From a virus, in IMG/VR virus record IMGVR_UViG_3300005253_000064, positions 1 through 46,400 of that record: DNA of 46,400 nucleotides; one strand, written 5' to 3'. The translations under genes were made by a program, and so were the position numbers. Positions within the stretch are counted from its first letter, which is position 1; the number at the start of each line of letters is the position of its first letter. Shown here in pieces: positions 1,668 through 39,215 of the stretch. A model generated the notes under the pieces. That model saw only the letters and a list, made by a program, of their open reading frames with translations. It was not told the DNA's origin and searched no databases.

Positions 1668-1861
1668 TGGTGAGAATAATTGAAGATGTAATCGCTTATG
1701 TAAGGCATTTTAAAGATAAAGGGTTCAATGTAGAGTATAAACATCCAGAGAATCCAGAATTAGTGTTAGTTCATTTAGTTCCTAATAGGGCTGATATCGT
1801 AGTAGTAGAAGCCAATCAAGAAATTTTAAACCAAATTAGAGAGGGGATTAAACATAACTGA
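1667..1861 (+). CDS. Small alpha/beta protein, 64 aa, first of a tandem pair
   Basis: Function unknown. The start chosen is the ATG at 1667 with GGAG upstream (about 1652-1655), rather than the GTG at 1655. The predicted order is helix (IIEDVIAYVRHFKD), beta strands, then a helix (ILNQIREGIKH). The following gene shows the same layout and spacing, with an IIE/LIE beginning and a helix of type ILxxIxxxI near the end, so the two look like an old tandem duplication. The position between terL and portal would suit a packaging accessory or a small-terminase substitute, but nothing in the sequence shows this. Confidence 0.6.
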   Translation: MVRIIEDVIAYVRHFKDKGFNVEYKHPENPELVLVHLVPNRADIVVVEANQEILNQIREGIKHN

Positions 1862-2057
1862 TTTAAGCTGTTATGTTAAAGGTGCTAAGCTAATTGAGGT
1901 AATCAAGGGTTTGGTGGCGGAGGGTACTAAGATCATCTACAAATACCATGATTATGGGCGTTTGAAGGTTTACTCAATTCGCAAAAAGGAATTAATTATT
2001 AATGGACCAGGTGTAATTTTAGAAGAAATCAAACGGAGTGTGGAGAATGGAAGCTGA
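1854..2057 (+). CDS. Small alpha/beta protein, 67 aa, AUA start, second of the pair
   Basis: The open frame (stop at 1827-1829) has no ATG, GTG or TTG before a TTG at 1911, which would remove the first helix. ATA at 1854 follows a GAGGGG stretch by seven bases and overlaps the previous gene's stop, so it is the best start. The product begins (M)TDLSCYVKGAK and resembles its upstream neighbour: an N-terminal LIEVIKGLV helix, KIIYKY and LKVYSI strands, and a C-terminal ILEEIKRSV helix. Function unknown. The reading frame is likely real; the initiation codon is inferred. Confidence 0.55.
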   Translation: MTDLSCYVKGAKLIEVIKGLVAEGTKIIYKYHDYGRLKVYSIRKKELIINGPGVILEEIKRSVENGS

Positions 2058-2220: not shown

Positions 2221-2314
2221 GTGTAAAAATTGCGATTTTTGGAGTTTTTGCACTTTATATTTATGTATAGACGATCCAGAAGAAACAGAGGAAGAGGCGT
2301 GTTATCTTGGCTGA
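2213..2314 (+). CDS. Tiny Cys-rich protein, 33 aa, TTG start
   Basis: The TTG start lies inside the end of the previous gene and the TGA lies inside the start of the portal gene, so the ORF fills the gap exactly. It keeps the C-x2-C-D, aromatic, C, C-I spacing of the gene before it (CKNCDFWSFC then LCIDDP) followed by an acidic tail. This is probably a truncated or minimal copy of the same zinc knuckle. It is below the size usually annotated. Confidence 0.45.
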   Translation: MTECKNCDFWSFCTLYLCIDDPEETEEEACYLG

Positions 2315-3893
2315 GGATACAGAAAAATTGCCACCGCCTTCAGCGGTATTTGTAATGGATTTTAAGAAATCAACTCAAGTAAAAACTCCACCAAAAAGCA
2401 CTGCAACCGAAGTTCGCACGCCATCAGCACTTAAACAAGGTGTAGCTTATCATTTGGTAAAATCAATGGAACACCGGAAATTTGTTAAACGTACTGATTT
2501 TGTACCTTATTACAAACCTTCGGATGATATTTATGGTTCCTCTACGGGTTTAGATGAGAGACCTTCGCTGGAAGACCTTTCTGCTATTACTAATACCCGT
2601 GTTGGGTGTGTGTTCTATGCTACTAATGGTGTAAGTGGAGATGCAATGCGCAACTGGCACGTTTTTGTTGATCCGGATTCTCAGAAAGAAGTTAGAAATA
2701 AAGACACGAAAGCTGCTTTAGATTTTGCATCTCTTTCTGATTTAAAAAACGCAGCACAGCAATATTTACGTTATGCTTTAGGTTATGGCACGTCTTGGTT
2801 AGTAAAGTATTGGGGAATTAAAAACGAGATTAAACACATGGAAGATCCACCAAAACTGGGTAAACCACCACGTAAATTCCGCGCTTTCTCCCCACGTTAT
2901 ATGCAACCCATTAATGTAGACAAATCAAATGAACTTAATTATGAGGAAGATGTTTGGAAATTCTCTGGTGGTGAGCTGAACTACAAATATGGTATTCACC
3001 AAGATAGAGTGGATGTTTTAACGTTATATCCAGAAGAAGGAAGCTGGCGCGGTCTTGCTATTGTAGAACCCGTTTGGATTCCTTTAATGGGTTATTTTAA
3101 TAGTTTTATTTATCTTACAAAAGGTCTACGACACTGGGGAGATGCTATTCCAGCAATGTTCACGGGTGATGGATTGCCGGAAGCAGGAGAAATTACTTCA
3201 GTATTAGATTTAATGGACGAGTACCAAATGAATTATAAATGGGCGCTTGGTAAGGATGATCGCTTAGAATTCATTCAAACTAAGATTGGCTCTGGTCTTA
3301 AAGAAGCATTTGAGATGTATAAGGAAGAACTTTCTTCCGCCTGGCGAATACCTTTAAACCAATTATTCGGGCGTTCTGTTGGTGGTGGTTTAATGGGCGC
3401 AGGTGCTTTAGTTTCAAAGGAAGATTATCTTCAAGAGATTTCCAATAAGCAAATGGCTATGACTGATAATATAAAGAAGATTTATATTGATGCCGGGTTT
3501 AAAATTGAGAGTTATGATCTTCTCTGGAATTTAGCAATCAAGAAAACTGATGAGCAACGCTTAAAAGAAGAAGGGATGGAAACACAGAATAAAATATTAA
3601 CTGAACAGTGGAGACAAGCTAAAGCGCAAACCAAATTAATTAATATGCAAGTAGAAGCAGCCGAGTGGCAATCTTTAATGCCAGAGCAAGAAGGAGGAGG
3701 AGCCGGTGAGGGTGGTGAGGGCGAGGGGAAAGGTGGTGGTGAGGGTGATGAAAACAAAGAGGAAATTGATGCTGATCAAATGGAAATTGCGGAACTAACA
3801 GATCTCCAGAAAGAAAAACGTAAACGCTTTTGGCAATCAATTCACATTGAAAATCACATTACATTTCCTTATGGAGGTGACCGGAGATACTAA
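2307..3893 (+). CDS. Portal protein (DUF1073-like), 528 aa
   Basis: Dodecameric head vertex through which DNA is packaged. Its position directly after terL and its length suit a portal. Recognisable regions are an N-terminal segment with PSDDIY (about residue 71), a central mixed domain, and the C-terminal helix-turn motif SSAWRIPLNQLFGRS (about 343) followed by a long helix and a Gly/Glu-rich acidic tail (about 455-495) of simple composition. The TTG at 2307 has GAGGAAGAGG upstream; no ATG precedes the conserved region. A second protein in this genome (43990-45423) shares PSDDIY and the IPxxQLF motif. Confidence 0.85.
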   Translation: MAEDTEKLPPPSAVFVMDFKKSTQVKTPPKSTATEVRTPSALKQGVAYHLVKSMEHRKFVKRTDFVPYYKPSDDIYGSSTGLDERPSLEDLSAITNTRVGCVFYATNGVSGDAMRNWHVFVDPDSQKEVRNKDTKAALDFASLSDLKNAAQQYLRYALGYGTSWLVKYWGIKNEIKHMEDPPKLGKPPRKFRAFSPRYMQPINVDKSNELNYEEDVWKFSGGELNYKYGIHQDRVDVLTLYPEEGSWRGLAIVEPVWIPLMGYFNSFIYLTKGLRHWGDAIPAMFTGDGLPEAGEITSVLDLMDEYQMNYKWALGKDDRLEFIQTKIGSGLKEAFEMYKEELSSAWRIPLNQLFGRSVGGGLMGAGALVSKEDYLQEISNKQMAMTDNIKKIYIDAGFKIESYDLLWNLAIKKTDEQRLKEEGMETQNKILTEQWRQAKAQTKLINMQVEAAEWQSLMPEQEGGGAGEGGEGEGKGGGEGDENKEEIDADQMEIAELTDLQKEKRKRFWQSIHIENHITFPYGGDRRY

Positions 3894-4069
3894 GAATTAG
3901 TATAACGATTGAGGAATTAATTGACGGAATGTTTAATATCACTGATAGTAGTAGGAGAGCTGTTAAAACTAAGGAAGTAGCAATAAATATCCTAAACCTT
4001 CAATATCTGAGAGCAAAAAAATTTTTAGAAGACAATTGGCATAACGGGAATGGTGAGGTAGAAGAATAA
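3887..4069 (+). CDS. Small helical protein, 60 aa, AUA start
   Basis: The frame opens after a TGA at 3878. A perfect GGAGGTGA (3873-3880) sits six bases before ATA at 3887; the only ATG (3929) would cut off a third of the protein. The ORF overlaps the portal stop, and its own TAA overlaps the next ATG (TAATG). It begins (M)LRISITIEELIDG, then a basic helix and an acidic end (GEVEE). No family was recognised. The strong ribosome-binding site, otherwise unexplained, is the main evidence for the start. Confidence 0.6.
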   Translation: MLRISITIEELIDGMFNITDSSRRAVKTKEVAINILNLQYLRAKKFLEDNWHNGNGEVEE

Positions 4070-7000
4070 TGGCTGCCGTAGCTAAAGATAATATCGCAGA
4101 TTGCGTAAAGGAAAAAATGCATAAAATTGCGCAAGAGAAAGGTGGTAAACTCAATAAGAAACAACAAAAAGCAGCATTGGGTAAAGCTTATGGAATTTGT
4201 CGTTCTGATTCGGTTAGAATCTGTGATGGTTGTAGAAAAGAGAAGCCACTTTATTATCAGAAGCTATGTAAGGAATGCTACCAAAAGAGAGTAAAGAATT
4301 ACGTAGATAAATACGATATGGATGAGGATAAACTACGTAAGGCGCTGGCAATTCTGGAGAGGGAAACTGTTAGTATGAACTCTTTAGAGAAAGAAACTTA
4401 TTTTCGCGCCCATTTAATGCCTTATTTTGCAACTGGTATGATTAAAGCTAATAAAGAAAAATTAAAAATTCGGCAAGATGCATCAATTGGGCAGATTTTA
4501 GGTGGTGGAATTAAACAGAAATTACAAGAAAAGAAAGAAAGAAGCATTTTCTTCAAACCTTTTAGACCATTGGAAACTCTGCATGAAATCACCGAAACAG
4601 CAGGAAAGAACTCTTCTTCCAATGTTATTGGAATGGAATACTCAGACGGTATGCTAAAGGTCACATTTAATTGGGAAAAACTGGGAGAGGTAGAATATGG
4701 TTATGATGTTGGACTGGGTTTCTATGAAAGAATGGCAAAAGCACCATCAAAAGGAAAATTTGTCTGGTCCGCCTTAAGAGGAAAGTCACCTGGTTATGTT
4801 ATTGATAATCCCGCAAAAAAGACGCCTGGTGGTGTTGGTGGTTCTATTGTACCATATACCAAAATAACTAAGAGAAAGATTCAAGGAAAGGAATTCAAGA
4901 AACTCCAGAAACATTATGCTGGAATGCTGAAAGGAAAGGTTAAAGTAGTGGCTCACATGCCATTTGTAAGGAAGAAACAAAAAATTTTATCCAGAAAAAG
5001 TAAACCATTCAAAAAAGTCCCTGATGGTGATTTTGTATTAATAAAAATTTCTTCCTTATCAGATTTAGACGTAGAAGGTCATTATCGTAATATTAATGGA
5101 AAGCAGGTTTGGATTCCAAAATACTCAAGAGCTGGAGAAGCCAAGAAAGCCATAGTAGAAGGTATTAGATCCGGAAAGATTAAAAAAACACCACTTCCCA
5201 AAACCAAATCTCAATTAGCGCAAGAAAAAGCAGAAACCAAGGAGAAGGTTTCTACTCAGAGGCGTGCGCAATCTTCAGAGGAAAAAAGAAGAAGAGAGAC
5301 TGAAAAACAAGCCAGAGGTATAAAAGCGATACCCGCACCAGAGCCAAGAGAAGCAGCAATCCAAAACCTTATTGAAGAAACGGGACTTGAGAGAAAGGAA
5401 GCTGAAAAACAAATAGCGAAACGCATGGGATTAACACCAGAGCAAGCCAAAAAGAAAGCAGAAACCAAGCAACGGGAAGAAACATTTAAGGCTAAGCATA
5501 AAGAATTAGGCGCAAAATTAACAGCTTTAAATGAACTTAATAAAAAAATTCAGTCAGCACCATTGAAAAATTTATTAAAACTATTATTGAAAGGTTTTAT
5601 GCTTATGGCGACAGGGAAGGATGCAAAAGTAGTTTTAAATAAATTTAAAAACTTTTACGGTAAATTACAGAAGGAGAAGAAACTGGATCAGAATCAAAAG
5701 AAAAAGCTTCTTCTCTATATTTTTAAGATTCATAAAGAAATGGAAGCATTATCAACTTCGAAAAAAGATTTTGAATATATCAGTGCTGCGGTGGATCAAT
5801 GTGCAAAACGTAAGGTTGCACAGTCTGGTGGAAAGGGAAACTATAGGCAATATGTTGCTGAGTGTATTAGAATCATTGGAATATCCAGAAGAAGTGCTGG
5901 ATTATCAAAGCGTTCTGGTGGTACAGCAAGCGAAGTCAGGCGCGGTCAGCGTAGGGTAAGAATGCAGAGAAGAAGCACTGCAAGACGCACAGTCAGAGCA
6001 CAAAGGAGTGAGACTATGCGCCTCCATAATCAAGCAGTCCAAAGACTCAATGAATTTGAAGTCACATTTCATAGGCAATTAAACAGTAGAGATATAACCA
6101 GCGCAAAACGTACATTAAGAGTAGCAGAAGGTTTGATTGATGCTTTAAGAGGTGAAACTTCAAAAGTGTTCTGGGAAAATCAGTTTATTGAATGGCAAGA
6201 AGAAATACAAACACATTTACAATTAATACAAGAAGAACAAGAACGTAGAATAACACAGCAAATTCAAGAAAGAAGGGAAGCCAGAGAAGGTGTAAGATCC
6301 GCACGCCAGAGACGCATTGAAGAGAGAGTAAGACGTAATAGTGAAGCAATCAGTGCAAGTAGCGGTGCAAATGAATCCGAAGCAAGAAGTGCAAGTGAAG
6401 TAATACATATTCAAATACCGGAACGTGAGCCATTGACACCTGCTCAATATTCAATGTTATATGGTGGACGTGAGCCACCAGTCTATGCACTTCTAAATGC
6501 GCCAGCAGGAACACAACAAACAAGACGCGGTTATTGGACTCAAGCTGGTGTTTGGAGAAACCCAGTCTTTAGAACAGCAGAGCAGATAAGCCTCACGCGG
6601 GCTTCTGTGAGACAAGCAAGAGCCAGACGTTCTACGGGTTCAAGGATTTCCGTAAGACGTGGTGGAAGCAGAATGGGTGGTGGATCATCAACAGAATCTG
6701 CCTCTGCACGTGAAGCCAGAGCAAGAAGGCGTAGCCATCCTGGTCCTAAGATTCGGTGGAGGACAAGAATTACATTTGATGGAAGAAGCTATAATTCACT
6801 TCAAGAAATTAAAAAATCTGATTTAAGAAGGGGACAGCACCTGGAACTCAATCCTATTGCTAAAAAAGATTATGATTTTGTAAACACGGATTTTAATCCC
6901 CGAAAACCAGAGAGAGAAGGTAATCGAAGAAGAATTCAAATAAGGAAAGGAGAATCTGCGGGGAGAGCTAATTTCGATGTACGATATCACGAAAGAACTG

Positions 7001-7467
7001 GAAATTATATTTATTTAAGCATATTAAGACAAAGACCAGATTTCAGAGGACGTGGTGCTTCAAGCATTCTTAAACCCGCAATAATGTGGGCAGACAGTCA
7101 AAATCTAATAATTGGTGGATCACCCGGTCCAATTGGGAGAGACGAAGAAGTTGCGCCAGCTCACCTGACAAGAGCAGAGCAGATGACTTGGGCAGAGAAT
7201 AACTCAAGAGATTTGGACAATTTTTATAGAAAACTTGAAGGAGAACCTAACTGGGAATATGGCGGTTCTTTTGCAAGATTTCCGCATCCCGAAAGAATTG
7301 GGAGAGCAAGAAGCAGTGACTTAGTTAGATCCATTAAAATAAAATTAGATTCCAGGAGAAAATTAATTTTCTTCAAAAATCCAAAAGTAAATATCGCTGA
7401 AATAGGTGGTTATCATTTCTATTATGATCCAGAAAAGGATCTGTTTTATCAATTAGATACGGAGTGA
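4069..7467 (+). CDS. Large multidomain head-region protein with KTSC and GNAT-like domains, 1132 aa
   Basis: The size and the position between portal and protease suggest an internal head, ejection or minor capsid protein (the MuF slot), but no MuF motif is visible. Parts in order: a helical motif ending KAAGK-like AALGKAYGIC (residues 10-44); a zinc knuckle with Cys at about 52, 55, 68 and 71; a KTSC domain (about 181-236: SSSNVIGMEY ... VEYGYDV ... APSKGKF); a basic linker with GKQVWIPKY; long Arg/Glu/Lys-rich coiled coils (about 380-800, with a second Cys-x-Gln-type helix at about 585); Arg/Ser repeats; and a GNAT-like region (about 964-1075) with the acetyl-CoA loop RGRGASS and a late NNSRDLDNFY helix. 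The acetyltransferase activity is inferred. Confidence 0.7.
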   Translation: MAAVAKDNIADCVKEKMHKIAQEKGGKLNKKQQKAALGKAYGICRSDSVRICDGCRKEKPLYYQKLCKECYQKRVKNYVDKYDMDEDKLRKALAILERETVSMNSLEKETYFRAHLMPYFATGMIKANKEKLKIRQDASIGQILGGGIKQKLQEKKERSIFFKPFRPLETLHEITETAGKNSSSNVIGMEYSDGMLKVTFNWEKLGEVEYGYDVGLGFYERMAKAPSKGKFVWSALRGKSPGYVIDNPAKKTPGGVGGSIVPYTKITKRKIQGKEFKKLQKHYAGMLKGKVKVVAHMPFVRKKQKILSRKSKPFKKVPDGDFVLIKISSLSDLDVEGHYRNINGKQVWIPKYSRAGEAKKAIVEGIRSGKIKKTPLPKTKSQLAQEKAETKEKVSTQRRAQSSEEKRRRETEKQARGIKAIPAPEPREAAIQNLIEETGLERKEAEKQIAKRMGLTPEQAKKKAETKQREETFKAKHKELGAKLTALNELNKKIQSAPLKNLLKLLLKGFMLMATGKDAKVVLNKFKNFYGKLQKEKKLDQNQKKKLLLYIFKIHKEMEALSTSKKDFEYISAAVDQCAKRKVAQSGGKGNYRQYVAECIRIIGISRRSAGLSKRSGGTASEVRRGQRRVRMQRRSTARRTVRAQRSETMRLHNQAVQRLNEFEVTFHRQLNSRDITSAKRTLRVAEGLIDALRGETSKVFWENQFIEWQEEIQTHLQLIQEEQERRITQQIQERREAREGVRSARQRRIEERVRRNSEAISASSGANESEARSASEVIHIQIPEREPLTPAQYSMLYGGREPPVYALLNAPAGTQQTRRGYWTQAGVWRNPVFRTAEQISLTRASVRQARARRSTGSRISVRRGGSRMGGGSSTESASAREARARRRSHPGPKIRWRTRITFDGRSYNSLQEIKKSDLRRGQHLELNPIAKKDYDFVNTDFNPRKPEREGNRRRIQIRKGESAGRANFDVRYHERTGNYIYLSILRQRPDFRGRGASSILKPAIMWADSQNLIIGGSPGPIGRDEEVAPAHLTRAEQMTWAENNSRDLDNFYRKLEGEPNWEYGGSFARFPHPERIGRARSSDLVRSIKIKLDSRRKLIFFKNPKVNIAEIGGYHFYYDPEKDLFYQLDTE

Positions 7468-7472
7468 AAATA

Positions 7473-8783
7473 ATGGAAAGAGAAGATATAGTTAAAGCAA
7501 TAGCAGAATACCATGAAGACATGAATCTGGCTGTAGCAGAAATAGCGCTGGATTATGCAGTAAAGCGCAAAACTGAAGATATGAAATCTGGAGAAGACTC
7601 TTCAGTATATTATGGAAGAATTACACGCGCGGGACCATTTCTATATCCCGAAGGGTGGAAAAAGAAGGATTATAATAATTTGAAACCGTTGTTTCAAAAG
7701 ACAAGCCATTTACCAATATTTGGCTCAACGGGCTTAGGCTCTCATAATGAGGACAGCCCAAATACGCATTTGGTTGGATTTAGTACAGATTGGGAATATG
7801 ATGATAAAGATAAGGATATTTACGGGTATCAATATTTTTTTGATGATGTAAAGAATTTATCCGCATTAAAGAATCCCGTAGAACTTCCCGTAAGTATTAG
7901 ATTTGACGATGCAGGTCACGGTAATCAGCAAGTCTTAACTGAATTACATCATTTAGCTGTAAGCCTCAATAAACTGGAAGATGACCGTTGTGGTCTTGAA
8001 GGTGGAAAAGCTTGCACTATTTCTCCCATAGGAGATGCAACTAAAGCCTATGGAATAAGTACAGAAATCGCGGAAGGTTCGACTGCGACAGCAGAGGGCA
8101 CCGCGTCCAGTGATATTGGAACTGGCTATCAAAAATTAAAAAATGAAATCTCAGAGGCTATTGATATGACAAATGATACAACAAAAAAAATTACCAGTCC
8201 TGGTGCAGGCAAGCCAACTCCCAGCAAAAATGAAATTGGTTCTTATGTTGAGACTTGCGCTAATGGCGCTAAGACTGAAGAAGAATGCAAAATGCAACAA
8301 AAAAGAGAAGAAAGAACTGGTAAAGGGTATGACAGGGATGATGGAAAGATGGGAAAGGATTTAGAAGATCTGGACATCACCTTAGAGGATCTCACAGCTC
8401 TAATTGAAGAAAGCGATGACTTGAGAAAGGAAAATAAAGATTTGAAACTCCAGATAGAAGATAACCGCAAGGAAACTTCAGACCTGGAATCGAAAGTAAA
8501 TAGCTTAGTTAAGTGGCAAGAGCAAGCATTCGCAGTAGAAAAAGAACGCCAAGCAGAGGAACTGGAAGTGCTAAAAAAAGATTTAGTTGAGAATCATAGT
8601 ACTTGTAAAAAGTTCATTGAAAACCACAATGAATATGATTTTTTGACTGAATTTCATAAAGGGCTTCCAGTACCAGCAAGCGAAGAAGAAGATCTGGACG
8701 GGTATATTCCTACTTCCTTAGCGGATATGGGAAAAGACCTTAAAGATATTAAAGAGAAATTCAGCTACATGAGGATGAGCTAA
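7473..8783 (+). CDS. Prohead maturation protease/scaffold, DUF2213-like, 436 aa
   Basis: Assembles and then matures the capsid. The N-terminal half has the DUF2213 signature YYGRITRAGPFLYPEG (about residues 46-61), a central LPVSIRFDD stretch, and TELHHLAVSLN with the RCGLEGG loop (about 150-182). The C-terminal half is acidic with a coiled coil (about 300-390), the usual scaffold part of a protease-scaffold fusion. The ATG at 7473 follows GGAGTGA and was preferred to the GTG at 7464. Decoration and capsid genes follow directly, the standard order. Catalytic residues were not assigned. Confidence 0.75.
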   Translation: MEREDIVKAIAEYHEDMNLAVAEIALDYAVKRKTEDMKSGEDSSVYYGRITRAGPFLYPEGWKKKDYNNLKPLFQKTSHLPIFGSTGLGSHNEDSPNTHLVGFSTDWEYDDKDKDIYGYQYFFDDVKNLSALKNPVELPVSIRFDDAGHGNQQVLTELHHLAVSLNKLEDDRCGLEGGKACTISPIGDATKAYGISTEIAEGSTATAEGTASSDIGTGYQKLKNEISEAIDMTNDTTKKITSPGAGKPTPSKNEIGSYVETCANGAKTEEECKMQQKREERTGKGYDRDDGKMGKDLEDLDITLEDLTALIEESDDLRKENKDLKLQIEDNRKETSDLESKVNSLVKWQEQAFAVEKERQAEELEVLKKDLVENHSTCKKFIENHNEYDFLTEFHKGLPVPASEEEDLDGYIPTSLADMGKDLKDIKEKFSYMRMS

Positions 8784-8785
8784 CC

Positions 8786-9310
8786 ATGACCGTCCCAAGC
8801 GATTTTGTAGCTCAAGGTATCTATAATATTTTTATCAAGAAAGAAAAAGGAGAGAAGAGAATACTGGTTAAAGCCAGCTCTGGAGCCGATACAATCTTTA
8901 TTAGCGCTATTGTCACCAGAAAAGGCGAGACTGCTGGAACTCCCGAAGTAGATCTATGTGCTAAGGGTGAACCAGTGTTTGGCGTTATCGTTGGACAAGC
9001 ATGGGCTGCACGGGATATGTCTAAAGATTCTGATTCTCCATTTACAGATGGAACATTTTTGTTTATGGAAAGATTAGAGGACGGAGACCAAGTCTGGCTC
9101 ACTGCTAAGACAAATACCACAATTACCTTCGGTGGTACTGTCCAAGTAGATGGTGGGTTTATCATTGACTTTGCTTACGTAGATGCGGCTGCAGCTACTG
9201 ATACACTCTCAAGTGCTATTGGTAATACGTTAGTTGGCTGTACTCTAACAGCAGGTCAAGAAAAGTTATGCTTAATTGAGATCTCCGGTACTGGAGTAGG
9301 TGCTGTCTAA
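8786..9310 (+). CDS. Capsid decoration protein, probable, 174 aa
   Basis: Lies between protease and major capsid genes, the usual place of head-stabilising decoration proteins. The sequence is beta-rich with Gly/Thr turns (KASSGADTIFISAIVTR, GEPVFGVIVGQAW, LEDGDQVWLTAK), like small beta-barrel or DUF2190-type proteins. There is no signal peptide or cysteine cluster. The stop overlaps the capsid ATG (TAATG). The assignment rests on context and composition. Confidence 0.55.
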   Translation: MTVPSDFVAQGIYNIFIKKEKGEKRILVKASSGADTIFISAIVTRKGETAGTPEVDLCAKGEPVFGVIVGQAWAARDMSKDSDSPFTDGTFLFMERLEDGDQVWLTAKTNTTITFGGTVQVDGGFIIDFAYVDAAAATDTLSSAIGNTLVGCTLTAGQEKLCLIEISGTGVGAV

Positions 9311-10284
9311 TGAGTTCATATTACGGAAACTTAACACCAAATCAAGTAAAATTTATCCAAGCGGAAATTGAAGAACAAACCTGGAATAATACCTTATTGA
9401 GAAATTTTTTCAATAATAAAGTTAATCCGGGTTTAACCAGAAGTATTCCAGAAGGGTTATTGACTTATGAAACTACTTTATGGGAAAAATTGAAGCCTGG
9501 TAAAATTGGCGCTGATATATACGATTTACCGCAAAACACACCTGGATTTAAAGTACAAGAAGCCAAAATCATGGTTTTAGGTACTAAGATCGTTTTAGGA
9601 TATACCGATGTTCTAAGATGGAAAAACAACCGCCAGATTAACGGTGGTGGAGAAATGATGGGTCGTGTTGTTAATCAGCAAATGAAAGCATTATACCAAC
9701 AAGTTGATCAATTCTTAGCCAGAGGCGATGCCTTTAAAAGTCCTGTTGCAGGTGACTTTATGGCTGGCGCTGGTGTATTTACGGGATTGTTTAATGGTGG
9801 TACTACGTTTGCAGGTGGCGGTGGTGATGACGTTATGACCGCGGCGGGAGACTATATAGCAACATTCGCCAGAGCCAAAAAAGCTCTGAAAAAGGCGGCT
9901 TTCGAAAAGAAAAAGTATATGATTTTCAGTGACGTAGACGTGGAAGAAGCAGCGCAACAAGGTACTAATCTGTATACCACTTATACTCCAATTACAGAGT
10001 ATAGGGCGATAATGGAAAGACCGGATGTTGCGGGTTGGATTGCTTCACATCAATTTATAGATCAAGCAGAGACCGATTATAAGATGGTTGTCACCACGCC
10101 CTACACGTCTGAAGGCAAACCAGCTTATCGTTTAATTCAAGGTTTTGATTTTAGAATGATTCCTCTATACGGTGGCGCGCTAAATGGCGCACTTCAATAT
10201 GAAGTGGCAGTTATTTGGTCTGGCGCATTAGAGTTTTTATTTACTGACGCTGCTCAAGTGACCGGAACTTTAACATTAATATAA
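9310..10284 (+). CDS. Major capsid protein, HK97-type, 324 aa
   Basis: Position after protease and decoration genes, length, and sequence character fit an HK97-fold capsid protein. There is an N-terminal helical arm (LTPNQVKFIQAEIEEQTW), a beta segment rich in charged strands (AKIMVLGTKIVLGYTD), a long helix ending VDQFLARGD, the P-domain helix with KKKYMIFSDVDVEEAAQQ, and a C-terminal beta region (YEVAVIWSGALEFLF). It ends about 25 bases before a T-tract, so a capsid-rich transcript may end here. I see no cleavage site with certainty. Confidence 0.8.
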   Translation: MSSYYGNLTPNQVKFIQAEIEEQTWNNTLLRNFFNNKVNPGLTRSIPEGLLTYETTLWEKLKPGKIGADIYDLPQNTPGFKVQEAKIMVLGTKIVLGYTDVLRWKNNRQINGGGEMMGRVVNQQMKALYQQVDQFLARGDAFKSPVAGDFMAGAGVFTGLFNGGTTFAGGGGDDVMTAAGDYIATFARAKKALKKAAFEKKKYMIFSDVDVEEAAQQGTNLYTTYTPITEYRAIMERPDVAGWIASHQFIDQAETDYKMVVTTPYTSEGKPAYRLIQGFDFRMIPLYGGALNGALQYEVAVIWSGALEFLFTDAAQVTGTLTLI

Positions 10285-10309
10285 AACTACATGGTTTTTG
10301 GTTTAATAA

Positions 10310-10318
10310 TTTTTTTTT
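10310..10318 (+). terminator. T-tract terminator after the capsid gene
   Basis: A run of nine T after a short AT-rich stretch downstream of the capsid stop. Archaeal RNA polymerase terminates at such T-runs without a hairpin. A TTTATA stretch (10331-10336) follows and could restart transcription, separating head from connector/tail genes. Confidence 0.45.
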
Positions 10319-10333
10319 AAACCTTTATTATTT

Positions 10334-10404
10334 ATACCTATGCGCAGGTGGTCTCCTACAAGTCAGATTGTACGGTGCAAGGGTTCGAATCCCTTCATGG
10401 GTAT
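10334..10404 (+). ncRNA. tRNA-like cloverleaf element
   Basis: A 71-base element in the only sizeable gap of the head genes. The ends pair as a 9-bp stem, ATACCTATG (10334-10342) with CATGGGTAT (10396-10404), with one G-T wobble. Inside is a textbook T-arm, AAGGG-TTCGAAT-CCCTT (10379-10395), and a 5-bp anticodon-like arm, TACAA-GTCAGA-TTGTA (10357-10372). The D-arm is poor (GG/CC only), the anticodon loop has six bases instead of seven, U8 and A14 are not clearly in place, and there is no CCA. It could be a degenerate tRNA, an unusual tRNA of unclear anticodon, or a tRNA-mimicking leader. Confidence 0.55.
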
Positions 10405-10450
10405 GCTATACTGAAAATAGTAAAAAAAAAAAAATAAGGAGAAAAAAAAA

Positions 10451-11089
10451 ATGGTTGATTATACGGGAAGTGAAACGGTTTTATTAAACGCTGCTTTAGG
10501 TCTCTATAAAAGGACGATATCACCAGATATACCCATTGATAGAACTAATAAGGATGTCATCATTGCTGCTCTGGATAATGCACATGCGGGTGGAAAGATT
10601 GTAGGGAATGTAATAACCCAACACGAATTAATGTGGTCTATTTTATCGAAAAATGGAGTTGAGACTGAATCTAATGAACATCGTCAGATTCGATTGAAAA
10701 AGGAGAGATTAGCAAAAATCAGAAAAATTAATGTCGGTGAACTTCAATCAAATGTAGAAGCAAAGAAAGCTGATTTGAAGAAAGCGCAAGACGTTGTTAA
10801 AGCAGAGGAACAGAGATTAAAAGACGCTGTGAAGAGAGAGAAACTGGTAAGCAAGAAAGAAGAAACTGCCATAAAAGCGCAAGCTGAAGCAGAAGCAAAA
10901 GCGAAGGACGCAGAAACGCAAATGGAAGAAATGAAGAAAAAAATGGCGGCAATGGAAGCCCAATTGAAAAACGGATCCGCAAAAAAAACAGAGTCAATAA
11001 TCGTTAAAGAACCGCCAAAAGAGATTAAAGAACCAGAAACTCCCACAGAAGAAAAAACAATAGACGAGCTAATTGAAACTCTGAAATAG
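10451..11089 (+). CDS. Coiled-coil protein, 212 aa
   Basis: Strong AAGGAG ten bases before the ATG. The N-terminal 80 residues look globular (VDYTGSETVLLNAALGLY, then NKDVIIAALDNAHAGGK). Residues about 85-180 are an uninterrupted Lys/Glu/Ala coiled coil, and the tail is Pro/Glu-rich. It follows the capsid gene, where some viruses place a head-tail or neck fibre component; no family was recognised. The internal AAG/GAA richness explains several antisense open frames here, which are shadows. Confidence 0.6.
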   Translation: MVDYTGSETVLLNAALGLYKRTISPDIPIDRTNKDVIIAALDNAHAGGKIVGNVITQHELMWSILSKNGVETESNEHRQIRLKKERLAKIRKINVGELQSNVEAKKADLKKAQDVVKAEEQRLKDAVKREKLVSKKEETAIKAQAEAEAKAKDAETQMEEMKKKMAAMEAQLKNGSAKKTESIIVKEPPKEIKEPETPTEEKTIDELIETLK

Positions 11090-11108
11090 ACCAGGAGGAG
11101 ATAACCTA

Positions 11109-11477
11109 ATGGTTTATTCAGAAGATGACGATTACGCATTGGCAAATAACTATGATACTTGGATTCTATATAAGGCAAAAAAAACCTTTCCAACTGAGAA
11201 GAAGTTAGCAAAAGATCGGATATGGGCTAACTCAATCATTAATCGTTGGATTGGCTGTAAAAACGTGGATATTACGGATGCAAGTTATTTCATATATTTG
11301 GAAGAGCTTGAAGTGGAAGTAATAATGCGGATGCATGATAAAGGGAAAGAACGGAAAGCGGGAGAAGCAAAAGGAATCTATTCGCCACATGACCATTTAT
11401 ATCAAGCAGAACGTAATTATCTTATCTCAATTGGGAAAGATACGGGATATAGAATTAGAAGAGGTGTACGCGCATAA
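11109..11477 (+). CDS. Head-tail connector, probable, 122 aa
   Basis: An excellent ribosome-binding site (AGGAGGAGATAA) precedes the ATG. The protein is mainly helical, with LAKDRIWANSIINRWIG followed by a long charged helix, resembling the small helical head-completion (gp6/gp15-type) adaptors found after capsid genes. The assignment is from position, size and helix content only. Its stop is shared with the next gene through an ATAA overlap. Confidence 0.5.
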   Translation: MVYSEDDDYALANNYDTWILYKAKKTFPTEKKLAKDRIWANSIINRWIGCKNVDITDASYFIYLEELEVEVIMRMHDKGKERKAGEAKGIYSPHDHLYQAERNYLISIGKDTGYRIRRGVRA

Positions 11478-11851
11478 CCTTCGAATTTTTTTCAGACGAT
11501 TTCATTTTAATTATCCAAGCGGGACCATTCACAAATTTAAATCGAACACCAGTGGTTATATTGGGCGGGGACGAGAATGAACGTGGCAATCCAGACGAGG
11601 GTATTAGGGTTATGGACAGTGACGTTGAGACGGGCGAAGGAAGTGACGCTTATGGAAATATAATTTATGAAAGGCAAGACGGGATCATCCGTGCGTGGAC
11701 ATCCAGCAGACCAGATCGAAAGAAACTTAGGGACGACCTGGTATATATTATTGAAAACTCCGGCGAAAATGTTTTAATTACCGGATGGGGAGTTATAAAT
11801 TTTTTAGATTATCATGCATTTGAAATTAGGCTAAGAAGGTGTGAAGCATAA
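11474..11851 (+). CDS. Head-tail joining or tail-completion protein, probable, 125 aa, AUA start
   Basis: The clear coding frame reaches back past the first conventional start (GTG 11552) for 26 codons, (M)TFEFFSDDFILIIQAGP..., to ATA at 11474. This ATA overlaps the preceding TAA as ATAA and has GGTG seven bases upstream. The remaining part is beta-rich (VVILGGDENERG, IIRAWTSSRPDRKKLRDDL, ENVLITGWG). The position before the tail tube and the size suit a head-closure or tail-terminator protein. Function inferred from order. Confidence 0.55.
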   Translation: MTFEFFSDDFILIIQAGPFTNLNRTPVVILGGDENERGNPDEGIRVMDSDVETGEGSDAYGNIIYERQDGIIRAWTSSRPDRKKLRDDLVYIIENSGENVLITGWGVINFLDYHAFEIRLRRCEA

Positions 11852-11919
11852 TGGAAATTTTGACGGTGAGAGAAAGTGATACGAAATATGCTACGGTAGT
11901 ATTCAGTTGTACTCTATAG
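11851..11919 (+). CDS. Possible 22-aa micropeptide
   Basis: The ATG overlaps the previous TAA (TAATG). The 22-codon product starts MEILTVRESD and ends FSCTL. Its only support is the coupled start; no family or clear composition. It ends just before the AT-rich gap ahead of the tail-tube gene. Confidence 0.25.
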   Translation: MEILTVRESDTKYATVVFSCTL

Positions 11920-11932
11920 AATAAAAAATTAA

Positions 11933-11951
11933 TTTATGAAAATTTCATAAA
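11933..11951. promoter_or_regulatory. 19-bp palindrome before the tail-tube gene
   Basis: TTTATGAAA-A-TTTCATAAA is a perfect 9+1+9 inverted repeat followed by an A-run and then AGGAG before the ATG at 11975. It may be a regulator-binding site, or an RNA hairpin that ends the connector transcript or sets expression of the tail-tube gene. The surrounding AATAAAAAATTAATT could include a TATA box. Confidence 0.5.
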
Positions 11952-11974
11952 AAAAAAAATAGGAGAAAAAAAGC

Positions 11975-13051
11975 ATGGGAAAATATTTTATTGATCATAT
12001 CTATTGGGCTTTAGAAAACGGTTATCTCAATCTGGCAACTGGCGTACCAGATCCTATGGATGGTTCTGATGTACATCAAGGTTTTAATGTATGTCATGGA
12101 GACATAGAAGTCCCGAAACCCGCAAAAGAAACGCAAGTAGAAACTTCTTCAGACAGTTTAAATCCAGATCCAGCTCTTTCTTATACCAAGGACGAAGCAC
12201 CTGGTTCGGGTTCATTTCCAGGTGGAGATGGAATGACTTACAGAGATATATTCTTAATGGCTGCTGCGTTTCCACATAAAGAAACTTCGGGTACGTGGGG
12301 AGGTGGTGTTGGAACTTATGGAAAGATACTGGGGAATTTTTCTGCTGAAGATGATCGATCTTCAATAATGATTCAAGCGGGAATAACAGATGGAAGCACA
12401 CCAATAAACCGCTGTTATAATGGCATACTCCCTACGGGATACCAACTTGGCTTTAAGAAAGGTGGAGTATTAAAAGAATCAGTGGAACTCTCAATTGCAA
12501 CCTATATTGCTAATACGCAAGCATTTGTCACTAATGCGAATTTTGATGATGGGCGTTGGAGTTTATGGGCATTAAAAGGTGCTACTCCAAAACTGTATCA
12601 TGCCACAGATTGCAAATTATATTGGGATGAGTCACATGCAGCGGAATTAGCAGGTTTGGCTATTGAAGACTGTCAATTAAAGGTTGGCTTACCACATGAC
12701 GTAGAAGCTGATTCAAGTCAATTATACCATGAACACGAATGGAGTAAAAAACGTACATTTGGCGCAACTGTGACGGGAATAATGACGGGTGATACTGAAT
12801 TTCTGGAAGCAGAAAAACTTTTTGCTGCTAAAACTAAGAAGGATTTGCGATTAAGCTGGGACCAAACTGTAAATGAATTAAAATGGCTTCAAGTTGATGA
12901 CGCATGGGTGGAATCTTATGGTGCTGAGAAAATACCACATAAGGAAAACGCCAGACGCTTGGAACTTAAATTTATTGGTGTTGCTGCTAATTTTGAAGGA
13001 AACTATAATAATTTACCAGATCCAACTTCAAGGCTGGATCTAAGTCCATAA
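11975..13051 (+). CDS. Major tail tube protein, probable, 358 aa
   Basis: The protein is beta-rich and abundant-looking, located between head-tail connectors and the tail-assembly chaperones, where the tube protein of long-tailed viruses lies. Features include Gly-rich turns around residues 70-130, a LPTGYQLGFKKGG segment (about 150) and an ending EARRL-type beta strand (NARRLELKFIGVAANF). It has its own leader with A-rich spacing and AGGAG. Because only a tube and no sheath gene is seen, the tail is probably non-contractile (siphovirus-like). Confidence 0.6.
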   Translation: MGKYFIDHIYWALENGYLNLATGVPDPMDGSDVHQGFNVCHGDIEVPKPAKETQVETSSDSLNPDPALSYTKDEAPGSGSFPGGDGMTYRDIFLMAAAFPHKETSGTWGGGVGTYGKILGNFSAEDDRSSIMIQAGITDGSTPINRCYNGILPTGYQLGFKKGGVLKESVELSIATYIANTQAFVTNANFDDGRWSLWALKGATPKLYHATDCKLYWDESHAAELAGLAIEDCQLKVGLPHDVEADSSQLYHEHEWSKKRTFGATVTGIMTGDTEFLEAEKLFAAKTKKDLRLSWDQTVNELKWLQVDDAWVESYGAEKIPHKENARRLELKFIGVAANFEGNYNNLPDPTSRLDLSP

Positions 13052-13069
13052 AAGGAGGTGAAAAAACAA

Positions 13070-13339
13070 ATGGTGAAAGAAATAAGAATTGGAGATAAGG
13101 TATATACTTTCAAGGAAAACATGATGGGATTAGATTTACTTGCTACATTCGAAGAAGGATGCCCAGAGTGGAAAGCACTAAAAGCCACTGGTGGTTTAAT
13201 TGCAAGAGCTTCAGTGAATCCTAAGTTAAGCAATAAGGATGTATTTATGATGCCTTATGGGGAATTCATTCAAATGATCCGAAAATTTTCAGATTTATAT
13301 GGTGCACCTGGCGAATTCGATTTTTTAGAAAAAGAGTAG
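13070..13339 (+). CDS. Tail assembly chaperone, short form (gpG-like), 89 aa
   Basis: Binds the tape measure during tail assembly. The ATG at 13070 follows a perfect AAAGGAGGTGA. The small acidic/helical protein sits between tail tube and tape measure, and near its 3' end GAT TTT TTA (13319-13327) contains the slippery heptamer TTTTTTA in the correct phase. Ribosomes that do not slip stop at TAG 13337-13339. Those that shift -1 read on to 13605. Both the position and this signal match the G/GT system of lambda-like tails. Confidence 0.8.
   Translation: MVKEIRIGDKVYTFKENMMGLDLLATFEEGCPEWKALKATGGLIARASVNPKLSNKDVFMMPYGEFIQMIRKFSDLYGAPGEFDFLEKE
13321..13327 (+). promoter_or_regulatory. -1 ribosomal frameshift site TTTTTTA
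   Basis: The sequence reads T TTT TTA in the zero frame (X XXY YYZ), twelve bases before the stop. A -1 slip gives TTT TTT then AGA AAA AGA GTA GAG and continues without a stop into the frame of the next ORF. That ORF has no good start of its own. Confidence 0.75.
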
Positions 13340-13605
13340 AGATTTTATTCTCAGAAGGGAGATATCCTTTAGATTTGATCCTTCTGGAGAATACATCAAT
13401 GACACTGACCGAACTGGATAACCTTAAGAAAAACAACCCAAAAAGATATTATAGGTTTGTATTTTTTATCCAAGAAAAGTTTAAGAGAGAATCTGTAGCA
13501 TTGGAAAAAATCAAGGACCAGGCAAGTGGAAATAGTGGTTCAAAAGATGTTTTTGTTATGAATGAGAGAGACGATTTTGTATCAGAAATAGGTGAAATGA
13601 AATAA
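13327..13605 (+). CDS. Frameshift extension of the tail assembly chaperone (T part of gpGT-like)
   Basis: This part is read only after -1 slippage, giving a fusion of about 182 aa (90 codons before, 92 after). The frame begins RKRVEILFSEGRYPLDLILL, so the coding character extends upstream of the TTG at 13375 that a start-codon search would choose. The rest is charged and helical (LTELDNLKKNNPKRYYRFVFF ... DDFVSEIGEMK). The extension normally interacts with tail tube and tape measure; the tape measure follows with an ATAA overlap. Confidence 0.7.
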   Translation, partial: RKRVEILFSEGRYPLDLILLENTSMTLTELDNLKKNNPKRYYRFVFFIQEKFKRESVALEKIKDQASGNSGSKDVFVMNERDDFVSEIGEMK

Positions 13606-14462
13606 GCGAACGTGAAAAGGAAGAAGAACAACTTCCAGATAAGAAGAAAATAAAGGGCTTAACGGGTATGTTTAAATCCATTAAGAATGCTGCGCTTTCT
13701 TCGGGACCACTTGGCGCTGTCTTTAGTGCAATGGAGTTATTACAGCCTTTACTCAAGCCTTTAGAAATCATTATGACTATTATTGGCAGTTTATTTACTG
13801 CCATGGCTGCTGAGATATTACCACCATTGATGGATGCTTTAGCTCCCGTTTTTGAAATGCTTATTGAACTTACACCGCTGTTTCAAGAAATTGGTACGAA
13901 TATCGGGGAATTAATAACAGAATTTCTTCCGCCACTTGTTAATATTCTCAAAAATTTTATGATTTCTTTAAAACCATTGATACCCGTAATAATGAAAATT
14001 ATTAAACAGATTATGGATCTTGCATTAGTTGTACTTCCTATTTTAATTAATGTATTTATGACTATTGCTAATGTAGCTTTAGCTGTTTTGAAACCTATTT
14101 TGGAGTGGTTAAGTAGTTTAAATGCTGGGCAGTTAAGTGCAGTTATTTATGCTTTTGGGTTGGGATTATCCGCGCTGTGGGGTTTTCTGCACATGGGTGG
14201 TCCCTGGGGCGCAGCTATTGGTGCTGGTCTATGGGCGGGATTTATGACGGGACCATTATTAATGGGATTTGGTCAAGGTGGAGTTGCTATGGAACCACAA
14301 GTAGCGATGCTTGCTGAAAATGAACCCGAATTAGTAGCACCATTAAGTCCATTTAATAGACGGATGGATGATATGATAAGCGCGCAAGAAGAAACAAATA
14401 CCTATTTACGGTTAATGTATGAAGATAAGGTTTTTAGACATGAATTAAGGAGAGGTTTCTAA
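13602..14462 (+). CDS. Tape measure protein, 286 aa, AUA start
   Basis: Sets tail length and enters the cell envelope. The start is ATA 13602, overlapping the previous TAA as ATAA with GGTGA six bases upstream. This adds 22 charged codons ((M)SEREKEEEQLPDKKK...) before the ATG at 13668. The body is very hydrophobic (about residues 40-215: repeated LLQPLLKPLEIIMTIIG-type segments, then GGPWGAAIGAGLWAG). The C-terminal motif GGVAMEPQVAMLAENEPELV is the common tape-measure ending. It is very short for the family; at about 0.15 nm per residue the tail would be near 40 nm. Confidence 0.8.
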   Translation: MSEREKEEEQLPDKKKIKGLTGMFKSIKNAALSSGPLGAVFSAMELLQPLLKPLEIIMTIIGSLFTAMAAEILPPLMDALAPVFEMLIELTPLFQEIGTNIGELITEFLPPLVNILKNFMISLKPLIPVIMKIIKQIMDLALVVLPILINVFMTIANVALAVLKPILEWLSSLNAGQLSAVIYAFGLGLSALWGFLHMGGPWGAAIGAGLWAGFMTGPLLMGFGQGGVAMEPQVAMLAENEPELVAPLSPFNRRMDDMISAQEETNTYLRLMYEDKVFRHELRRGF

Positions 14463-14911
14463 TGACATTAAATTATGGAAATGTGTATATTGAATACGGT
14501 GAGACTGCTGGTAATGGAGAAATGAGGCTGGCTTGTAGGGAAGAGCCAAAAGTAGATATTAAGGAAGACGCAGGTAAAAATATTTTTCACATGCCAGGAG
14601 ACAGGCGCGCAGAAGTTCATGGTATAGAAACCATTATTCGAAAAGTCATTATTAGAGAAGCTTTATTTAAAACTGAAGCAGATTGGCTCTTATGTCAAAA
14701 GAATCTCAGAAAATTAAATAAAGCAGGTACTATGACGCTACAATGGGCGAAGAATTCCACTCCTACATTTATTTACTTCTGGAGTGATGGTACTACTGAT
14801 TATAATGAAATGGAAGTTAAATATATTACTTGTAAAGGCGGAACGCGCGTTTCACATGGTACGCAAGAGAAATTTATGATTGATCAAATCCAATTTGAAC
14901 AAGCAGGGTGA
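14462..14911 (+). CDS. Distal tail protein, probable, 149 aa
   Basis: Follows the tape measure with a stop-start overlap (TAATG). The sequence is beta-rich with an N-terminal strand NVYIEYGETAG, a charged middle (RRAEVHGIETIIRKVIIREA) and a C-terminal FMIDQIQFEQAG strand. This is compatible with a Dit-like baseplate protein that links tube to receptor-binding protein. No motif proves the function. Confidence 0.5.
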   Translation: MTLNYGNVYIEYGETAGNGEMRLACREEPKVDIKEDAGKNIFHMPGDRRAEVHGIETIIRKVIIREALFKTEADWLLCQKNLRKLNKAGTMTLQWAKNSTPTFIYFWSDGTTDYNEMEVKYITCKGGTRVSHGTQEKFMIDQIQFEQAG

Positions 14912-14917
14912 TACCAC

Positions 14918-17900
14918 ATAGCTACACTAACAAACTTAGATATTAGCGAAGGTGTCATTATCTATGAAAGAGGTGGTTATCCCGAAGCAAAACTGGTTAT
15001 TAAGGATGGTGTGACCATTGCATCTGGGGATCTAATTCAAATAAATGGGAGATTTACTACTGCGGGTACTACTGAAGTTGTTTCCAGTAATGATGGTTAT
15101 ACTGTAAATGGCACTAAACAATTTAAGGATGATAACGCTACTTTTCAGACTAATAATGTTGCTGTGGGTGATATATTATGGATTATGGAAGATAATTTTG
15201 AAGGTTTTTATGTTATAGCTTCCGTTGATTCTCAAACCCAAATAACTGTCACCGCAGCAGGTAATTTCACAAGTACAACAGTATTAAATTATGAAATCTG
15301 GACCTCAATTATATTTAAGGGAAGAATTGTAGACCGGAATTTTGAGAAAGTAAAGACTGTTTTATGTGAATCTGAAGCAGAGGAGATTGACAAACAAATT
15401 GAAACGGATTTCTACTGTGGTAGATTAGGTGGATTAGTGCAAGAATTATTGGACCATGAATGCGCTTTTATTAATCATAGCTTTACACAGACCAGCCCAT
15501 ATAATTATCGCGCGCCTCATAACTTTAGGAATGAAGCGGATGGAACATACGCAGGCGATTCTTATTGGAATAATCTCTATAAGACTGGAACTGCTACAAT
15601 TGAAGTATTAGCCAGTCTGTCTGGTCATAAAAAAGTAATGGAATTAGATTCTGGAACGGGTGCTGCTCAATTCTCAACTTCACTTTGGAATAAACTCTAT
15701 GATACAATGGAGTTTTACATAAGATTTGCGCAGAATAATAAAAAATGGCAATTACAACTTGATGATGATCAAATCACATTTTATCCTGGAGTACGCCTTA
15801 AATGGGATACTGATGGAAACCTAAAATATTTAACGGGTGATTTTGCCACACCGGTATGGAATACAATTGAAGCCTATTCTGCAAATATATGGTATAAACT
15901 TAAAATAAAGTATGATATTACCAATGAAGATGGTATTGGAGACGACACACATGATTGGCATTTCTGGATTGATGATGTAAGTAAGGATGGTGGTTCTGGT
16001 TATGCTTTTTGGCACACAGCATATCTTGAAAATAGAACTATGAAAAACTTTTATTTTGCATCTGCTGCTACTGCCGCGGGTATTGCTTATTTTGATGCAT
16101 TTGGTTCTGTATATGATAATAATTATATCTTAGGCGTAAATGCTGACGTAGAGTACAACGAACTAATCTACACCACTGAGTTCTTGAAATATCCAATGAC
16201 AGAGAAGACAATGAGGCTTTACTTTAATTCTTATGCAGATAAACACCTAAAGGTCTGGTATATTACACCTACTTATGAAATTCTATTCAATGACGGAGAC
16301 GTGGATTCGGGAATTGATCTTAATGCAAGTTCTAATTATAAAAATGCTGAAGGAAAAAAGCAAGTAAAAGCTATTGACAAGGTGCATCTAAAAGGTGGAA
16401 TTGTAGACGGAGTAAGAATATTTTCTACTTATGGCGCTGGTGATGTGATTGCTAAAGATACTTACGCACATATTTTAGACCAATCTGATTTAGACGATAT
16501 GGCTCAGCAAGTATTTTCCAGGCAGAGTGCGGGGATATTAAATGTTGCTCTGGATTATCAAGAACTTAGTTATGGTTATATTCAAATTGGAGAAGAAATG
16601 ACTATTGTTGGTAATACCATTAGATTTAGGCGCTCAGATGAGTATATCGCTACTGTGAATACTCAATTCAAACTGAGGGGAGAAAGACTCCAATTGGGTG
16701 AGAATGCGGTAATTATTTACAGCGAACTATATTTAGATGATGTTTTGCTATTTCAGAGGAGTGAACAAGCAGATACTCAGAAAGCAACCGAAGAAAACTC
16801 ACAGTTAATAAGCGAAGTTGGCATTGGTACAACCGTAGTAGGTGGTGTTAGCGGTGGTGGTGCGGATAACACTATTACTAATATAGGTGCTGCTGGTGTT
16901 GGTGTCTATAAGCAAAAGGTTGGTATTCAATTTCAGTTAAAGAATATAAATGCGGGAAGCAATAAGATCACCATTACTGACGACACCACTAATGACGAGG
17001 TGGATATTGATTTAGACATTAGCCAAATATTAGAAGACACGCCTTCTGATGCACAGGTTCTTAAAGCGCCCACTTCAAACTGGGCTTTTGATCACCAAGC
17101 CAGCCCAACAAACATAAAACATTTGACAGACCTGCAATTAGCAGCTTTACATGCTAAATATACAAATGCCGAGGCTGTTGCAGCAGTAGCAGCTGGAGAT
17201 GATTACCTTAAACTTGTTGGGGATACTATGGGTGGTGCTATTAATATGGGTACTTATAATATCACCAATGTTAATATTATATCAACTCGAAGCATAGATA
17301 GTTATGACAAACTTAGGGTATGGAACAGTAATTTATATACTATTGGTATGCGTAGTGCAATGTCCTATGGAGGTCTTAATAGCTATGCTATGACTTTTAC
17401 TATGAATAATGATGCCGCCAGAGGTTTTGTTTGGAGAGATTCTGATGATGCCCAAAATGATGGTGCTATGAGTCTCACTACGGGCGGAATATTAACCGTT
17501 AAAGAAAGTATTACAATAGGTACTGGAGCTATTACTTCTGATGATGGAAATTTATTATTTACGTTTGGAAGGGGAGCAATTGGTTCACCTATCACTACAT
17601 TTGCCGCTTTTGCTCATAGATATAATATGAATTCTACTGATTATGGTTTTATGCAAGCTTCTGATGGGCGAACATATATTAATGCTATGACAGGAAAAAC
17701 AATTTCTTTTAGTATTAATGCTGTCGATAAAATGAATATGAATGTTTCTGCTTTAACTATGTCGCTTCCAATAGCTATGGGCACTAATAAGATAACTGGA
17801 TTAGCAGCACCAACTGCTAATGGAGACGCTCTCAGATATGAAAATATAAGCAATTTGGATTACGATCCACTCCTCTGGACTCAAACCAATGTTGCAGCTT

Positions 17901-20551: not shown

Positions 20552-20950
20552 ATAAAGAAATTCTTTAACACAAAAACATTTTCAAAACTGGATATGCTGA
20601 TTTTTTTAAGTTTTATTCTCTTTTGGGCGTTTATGAATACAGAGCTTTTTAGAAATTGGAAGGATTATTTTCAATTTGTTTATTTCTCTGGCGGTCTTGC
20701 TGTCGGTTGGATCTCTGGGCATCTTAGCCTTAGAAAGATTAGGAGTGCATTAGAAAAGGCGGAAAATATCATTAGAAGCCCAAAAAGTAATATGGACCAA
20801 AAATATCATGCGGCATGTGATGCCATTGACGAGAGTTGTTTTTATTTAGGCGTAGTTTTCGAAAAATACAACAGAAAGCAGAGGACTGCGCCCGGTTGGA
20901 AAGAAGCAAAAACAAAAGAAGAGAATATAGAGGAGGTGAAAAAAAACTAA
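20552..20950 (+). CDS. Membrane protein, about 132 aa, possible AUA start
   Basis: The start is uncertain. A TTG at 20477 would overlap the previous gene by 59 bases in an Arg/Lys-rich shadow. ATA 20552, with GGTG four bases upstream, gives a natural beginning (M)KKFFNTKTFSKLDMLIF. One or two membrane segments (LIFLSFILFWAFM and FVYFSGGLAVGWISG) are followed by a soluble charged domain with paired cysteines (AACDAIDESC). Candidate lysis or envelope protein. It ends one base into the next gene (TAATG). Confidence 0.55.
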   Translation: MKKFFNTKTFSKLDMLIFLSFILFWAFMNTELFRNWKDYFQFVYFSGGLAVGWISGHLSLRKIRSALEKAENIIRSPKSNMDQKYHAACDAIDESCFYLGVVFEKYNRKQRTAPGWKEAKTKEENIEEVKKN

Positions 20951-39204: not shown

Positions 39205-39215
39205 ATAATTTAATT
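39199..39215. repeat. A/T palindrome, copy 2
   Basis: AATTAAATAATTTAATT, identical to the core of 38869-38887. Lies at the convergent gene end, where it could also serve as a bidirectional transcription stop. Confidence 0.5.

Follow-up and report, generated by a model that had tools for sequence, protein, structure and literature searches.

AUA start codons are known but rare. Escherichia coli infC starts at the near-cognate codon AUU, and the case concerns a single autoregulated gene with another third base. In Staphylococcus aureus, infC, ccpN and citZ start at AUA, the first two behind extended Shine-Dalgarno (SD) sequences; four non-canonical sites are reported for the whole genome, reporters with AUA reach about 10-30% of the output with AUG, and changing AUG to AUA lowers the yield without abolishing it (PMC13009471). 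A review of archaeal initiation gives AUG, GUG and UUG as the only starts (PMC7531240), and a reconstruction of more than 60,000 prokaryotic AUG starts recorded switches to GUG, UUG, CUG and AUU and none to AUA (PMC5622118). Here we describe a virus sequence of 46,400 bases, the whole of IMG/VR record IMGVR_UViG_3300005253_000064 (referred to as the window), in which nine coding frames had been predicted to begin at ATA. In our opinion, held with considerable confidence, the best explanation is that at least six of its genes start at an SD-led AUA adjacent to the preceding stop and that initiation in the host is permissive. Such a frequency of AUA starts appears to be new to the open-access literature; because our search was confined to that literature, finding none reported argues only weakly for novelty.

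The sites resemble the AUA genes of S. aureus in that a strong SD would help acceptance of the codon. They differ from that bacterial case in that many occur in one viral genome, together with genes of a Lokiarchaeota genome, mostly at stop-start overlaps and in what is probably an archaeal setting. With E. coli infC they would have in common near-cognate initiation decoded as methionine. The geometry is that of ATGA and TAATG coupling in phage operons, and ten 4-nt ATGA or GTGA overlaps are found in the window itself; the ATA overlaps differ in reading ATAA, with an AUA start and a TAA stop. Mitochondrial codes with AUA starts and AUA as methionine likewise have AUA at gene starts, whereas internal AUA here stays isoleucine.

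All nine predicted ATA codons are present at their positions and in frame, and in eight of the nine frames the stretch from the preceding in-frame stop to the ATA is free of ATG, GTG and TTG; the frame of 20552 has an upstream in-frame TTG (20477) and, as a further alternative, ATG 20594. SD pairing was scored against the anti-SD GAUCACCUCCUUA at each in-frame position. Energies run from -12 to -17.6 at 3887, 11474, 13602 and 14918, where the aligned spacing lies within the range of ATG genes, and from -10 to -10.7 at 31707, 1854 and 27650 (Table 1). Judged by these values, 3887, 11474, 13602, 14918, 31707 and 1854 appear to be strong start sites, and 27650 a good one contested by an ATT three codons upstream that is better placed relative to the SD; 20552 and 37010 seem weak. 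Thus, the claim of an SD at normal distance for most sites holds for six, where SDs have normal strength and initiation spacing. The two sites named as weakest, 27650 and 37010, are indeed contested and weak, respectively, and 20552 has to be added to them. At 3887 the ATA follows a perfect GGAGGTGA by six bases, as had been noted; two codons are open ahead of it, and the next canonical start is ATG 3929. The four ATAA overlaps (11474, 13602, 31707 and 27650) are all real. The open frame of 31707 starts exactly with ATA, its first canonical codon being 33 codons in, while the first canonical alternatives at 11474 and 1854 are GTG 11552 (26 codons in, without an SD) and TTG 1911. Tape-measure and receptor-binding genes had been listed among the nine: the 13602 product matches a PHROG tape-measure family (5.9e-8) from residue 11, i.e., ahead of ATG 13668, and the 14918 product, with Pfam Beta_helix at 1295-1440, is a probable receptor-binding protein or depolymerase. 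Its ATA lies 6 nt past the TGA of the preceding gene, with two codons open before it and the next canonical start at GTG 15011. It should be noted that 286 aa is short for a tape measure (13602-14462, + strand); perhaps the tail of the virus is short or its tape measure is split.

An enrichment test made independently of the earlier site list took 49 coding frames and considered, ahead of the first canonical start of each, the in-frame codons that stand behind a strong SD at suitable spacing. Seven of 29 such codons are ATA, against 0.98 expected (7-fold, p=4e-5), and ATT, ATC and CTG show no excess among the same 29. Some of these seven ATA codons have ATG immediately next to them; with such cases dropped, 14918, 13602, 27650, 31707, 11474 and 3887 are left, and the stricter test, which excludes ATA closely followed by ATG, gives 6 against 1.06 (p=5e-4). 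The second line of evidence is the coding character of the extensions. Taken together, the nine stretches from ATA to the next canonical codon (195 codons) score +60.7 bits; true coding segments score 49 ± 13, and off-frame segments without stops -55.6 ± 15 (0 of 5000 as high). The chance of 195 stop-free extension codons is P=6e-7. Taken singly, 11474, 20552 and 37010 are near neutral. The same scan found no ATA excess in 15 other viral contigs (4 against 4.6 expected in 585 open reading frames), nor in the archaeal phage psiM2, a Streptococcus phage and an Oceanotoga phage. The ATA matches inspected in comparison viruses were discarded, being mostly ATA directly before ATG or internal isoleucine codons.

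The third line of evidence is the position of the ATA codons relative to the preceding stop. In a hand-curated list of 71 genes, with the nine ATA starts taken from the original prediction, all nine lie within -8 to +16 nt of the previous stop, as compared with 32 of 60 canonical starts (Fisher p=0.006), and their SDs do not differ in strength from those of coupled canonical genes (Mann-Whitney p=0.81). The stop within 4-nt overlaps is TGA in all ten canonical cases and TAA in all four ATA cases. A single G-to-A change turns ATGA into ATAA and exchanges both signals at once, the TGA stop for TAA and the AUG start for AUA; such a change would be the simplest origin of the four ATAA sites. Enrichment of the codon, the coding character of the extensions, SDs of ordinary strength and close association with the preceding stop all support AUA initiation. 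The earlier wording, routine AUA initiation by coupled ribosomes, is upheld as to initiation, for about six to nine of about 70 genes, while gene spacing suggests the coupling; as a whole, the original observation is partly confirmed.

Table 1. Positions of the nine ATA sites and of other genes of the window referred to in the text
Feature	Coordinates	Strand	SD (energy, spacing)	Coding score of extension	Remarks
60-aa gene	3887..4069	+	GGAGGTGA, -17.6, aligned spacing 4		7-nt overlap with portal gene end
125-aa gene, head-tail/tail module	11474..11851	+	-12.0, spacing 4	+0.1	ATAA overlap
286-aa tape-measure-like gene	13602..14462	+	AGGTGA, -12.0, spacing 4	+10.9	ATAA overlap
1592-aa tail protein	14918..19696	+	GGGTGAT, -13.6, spacing 4	+14.0	C-terminal beta-helix
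70-aa early-region gene	31495..31707	-	GGAGAGTGAT, -10.7	+7.3	ATAA overlap
67-aa gene	1854..2057	+	-10.6	+6.8	8-nt overlap with previous gene
69-aa gene	27441..27650	-	-10.0	+14.8 (strongly coding)	ATAA overlap; rival ATT 27659
132-aa membrane protein gene	20552..20950	+	-7.6	+0.4	ATA start possible, weak
122-aa gene	37010..37378	+	-6.6, too far upstream	+2.1	ATA start possible, weak
Portal gene	2307..3893	+			TTG start; upstream partner of 3887; PF06381 2.3e-12
Radical-SAM protein	26547..27302	-			Host clue; closest genome match in Lokiarchaeota genome
N6/N4 DNA methylase	39214..40569	-			Host clue; DNA-level match (68%) in Asgard genome
DUF5906-type primase/helicase	41723..43369	-			Among surveyed archaea, Asgard closest (43%, 4e-96)

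Comparison with the N-termini of homologues, proposed as a check in the original prediction, was possible for a gene-sharing virus and for Lokiarchaeal genes, and its outcome favours ATA. A radical-SAM alignment search led to the virus G796 (IMGVR_UViG_3300017963_000058), which has in common with the window the radical-SAM gene (53%), a small early gene and the beta-helix tail region, and in which 34426-35604 has a homologue with 34% identity. Nearly all G796 genes offer a canonical codon early in the frame. In the one exception, the first 75 codons are without a canonical start; an SD, AGAGGTGA, precedes an ATA that lies 539 codons ahead of the stop and opens a MADRYWVG-type protein as ADRYWVGVDTNW. 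The ATA is followed by ADRYWVGVDTNWHDNNNWAS, and the next canonical codon is 54 codons in. In phage P19250A the homologous protein is annotated as starting exactly one codon ahead of ADRYWVGG, with ADRYWVGGTGTW following the start codon, so the alignment places the initiator of the homologue at the predicted ATA start of G796. When IMG/VR was scanned for ATH in the start position of (M)A[DN]RYWVGG, two records only were returned, G796 with ATA and another with ATT. The latter (L169:10512, + strand; IMGVR_UViG_3300020003_000015) encodes a ANRYWVGGTGTW tail-type protein with ATT in the start position and no earlier canonical start.

A survey of host genes had likewise been suggested. Carried out on a Lokiarchaeota metagenome-assembled genome (MAG; G001, 1.06 Mb), it found 19 ATA codons at strong-SD sites ahead of the first canonical start, against 7.4-8.2 expected (p=1.6e-4 to 5.8e-4); in the first 260 kb alone the enrichment is below significance, and the larger sample is significant. 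The HypA gene of this MAG begins ATA-CAT-GAA, which corresponds to the conserved MHE start, and matches TIGR00100 from residue 1, at the ATA, and from profile position 1; the homologue initiator thus appears to align with ATA here too. Ribosomal protein S4e passes the NCBIfam cut-off with a family match that opens about 40 codons ahead of the first canonical codon, itself 48 codons past the ATA. Family N-termini also fall at ATA in CheY receiver, beta-RFAP synthase, ribbon-helix-helix and zinc-ribbon proteins. These alignments suggest that the Lokiarchaeon itself accepts AUA starts. CTG is enriched as well (4 against 0.3), and SD-led CTG codons stand near the family N-termini of a rubredoxin (L180:6335, + strand) and a MinD/Mrp-like ATPase (L204:14596, - strand). 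An ATA candidate in the SAM synthetase of another Asgard MAG, G128, was rejected because an ATG 20 codons in suits the family N-terminus better.

If the true starts were instead the next ATG, GTG or TTG, the ATA codons and the open sequence upstream would be coincidental. A canonical codon does lie 14-33 codons downstream in all nine cases, and ATAA is expected by chance at many TAA stops. However, the coding scores of the extensions match those of true genes, an SD is mostly missing at the later canonical codons but stands at standard spacing before ATA, only ATA is enriched among near-start codons of the window, and later starts would trim family N-termini in the Lokiarchaeal examples; we consider coincidence improbable. 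Synthesis of the downstream frames as fusions, by frameshifting in the overlap or by stop readthrough (TGA 14909), has a precedent in the tail-assembly genes of other phages, which frameshift near the tape measure gene, and several overlaps are short. Such an account is nevertheless very improbable: there is no open overlap at 31707 or 14918, and one of just 9-18 nt at 13602, 3887 and 11474, every site is preceded by an SD of its own at the spacing used for initiation, and one recoding event cannot fit all sites. The window rests on one metagenome assembly, in which ATG might have been misread as ATA by a sequencing or assembly error; but ATA occurs at start codons in three unrelated assemblies (the window, G796 and the Lokiarchaeota MAG), and random G-to-A errors would not favour SD-led starts, which leaves error scarcely credible. 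Reassignment of AUA to methionine in virus or host would account for the starts, as in mitochondria. We reject such a code and give it practically no credence, as internal ATA codons align in homologues with isoleucine at 31%, with isoleucine, leucine or valine at 54%, and with methionine at 1.7%, less often than ATT and ATC do (5.4%). Internal ATA is still isoleucine, so the unusual use is one of initiation and not of recoding.

Several observations weigh against initiation at AUA by a permissive host. Three of the nine sites (27650, 20552 and 37010) are weak or contested; no close homologue of any of the nine window genes was found, so homologue alignments cover none of their N-termini; and 14918 continues the frame of the upstream gene beyond a TGA, where readthrough is conceivable. 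Two other Asgard MAGs, G101 and G128, are without ATA enrichment, and the sampled Lokiarchaeon relies on SDs less than the virus does; the host is, for these reasons, not pinned down. Both this and the negative MAGs would suit AUA starts that are real but private to the virus and independent of its host, as would the frequency of AUA starts in the virus, which is far above that in the Lokiarchaeota MAG (on the order of 1%). The same feature is, however, present in the Lokiarchaeota MAG and in the gene-sharing virus, and the window encodes zero tRNA genes; we regard a purely viral trait as unlikely, though not negligible.

Judged by gene similarity, the host is probably a Lokiarchaeota-type Asgard archaeon. 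The radical-SAM protein has 62% identity to one of the Lokiarchaeota MAG, the primase is closer to Asgard contigs (43% and 39%) than to Bathyarchaeia (31%), and both the methylase and the radical-SAM gene match sequences in Asgard genomes at the DNA level. The nearest homologues of the virus being Asgard, the AUA trait is probably that of the host. The methylase relatives have few or no other window genes in common, one (G482) additionally having a radical-SAM gene (50%). The window portal has no match in 227 Asgard genomes, and hence no provirus is indicated by portal there; in 379 genomes of the phylum of a Bathyarchaeota MAG it has one match (22%). Partial DNA searches gave no clear spacer-like match, and no initiator tRNA was found in the sampled stretches of the Lokiarchaeota MAG.

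With a permissive host, ribosomes ending the upstream gene, or fresh small subunits docked at the SD, would set AUA in the P site, where the initiator Met-tRNA would be tolerated despite the third-position mismatch, and the protein would begin with methionine. The likeliest mechanism is thus ordinary SD-guided initiation or reinitiation, aided by ribosomes that terminate at the same spot. The host would also use AUA, and occasionally CUG, AUC and AUU, as starts, and the virus would exploit this permissiveness. Given the S. aureus yields, reduced output of low-copy proteins such as the tape measure and tail fibre is plausible. A bolder proposal, which we hold tentatively at somewhat less than an even chance, is that AUA is a working fourth start codon in Lokiarchaeota-type archaea, through altered anticodon modification of the initiator tRNA or relaxed aIF1/aIF2 proofreading, used by essential genes (S4e) and, at coupled stop-start sites, by about a tenth of viral genes.

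No known prokaryotes are more closely related to eukaryotes than Asgard archaea, and in comparisons of archaeal with eukaryotic translation the choice of start codon is central. If AUA starts do recur in a Lokiarchaeota genome and in two gene-sharing viruses, start recognition there would be relaxed. AUA starts in virus and Lokiarchaeon also mean that standard gene finders would misplace or miss such genes; many genes of Asgard archaea and archaeal viruses may currently be truncated or overlooked by table-11 gene callers.

As to the virus itself, an exact 121-bp direct match between 1-121 and 46280-46400 and a terminase gene spanning the join of the ends indicate that the window is probably a complete, circularly closed genome. 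Its genes include the terminase large subunit (TerL; phrog_38), portal (PF06381), tape-measure-like gene, beta-helix tail protein, N6/N4 methylase and DUF5906 primase, the first three of which mark it as a tailed virus (Caudoviricetes). Single-sequence IMG/VR scans with portal, TerL, tail protein and primase found no close relative, a primase alignment search retrieved relatives at only 24-26% identity, and phage records gave remote TerL and primase matches only, with no close relative of the virus. Single-sequence AlphaFold prediction of the tail protein N-terminus gave no usable model (pLDDT 29). The radical-SAM gene (26547-27302, - strand) matches sequences of several Asgard genomes at the DNA level and has relatives in other viral contigs; it seems to be a gene common to Asgard viruses and their hosts. 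An Asgard MAG contig (L045, G101:C88) carries at 1416-2879 (- strand) a reverse-transcriptase-like gene, of group II intron type by eye, adjoining a truncated viral-type primase, and is possibly a broken integrated element. In the early region of the window, a 477-aa protein (43990-45423, - strand) has short portal-like stretches (PSDDIY and IP-x-QLF-x-R motifs; BLASTP 3e-4) and is possibly a second portal-like protein or a diverged duplicate.

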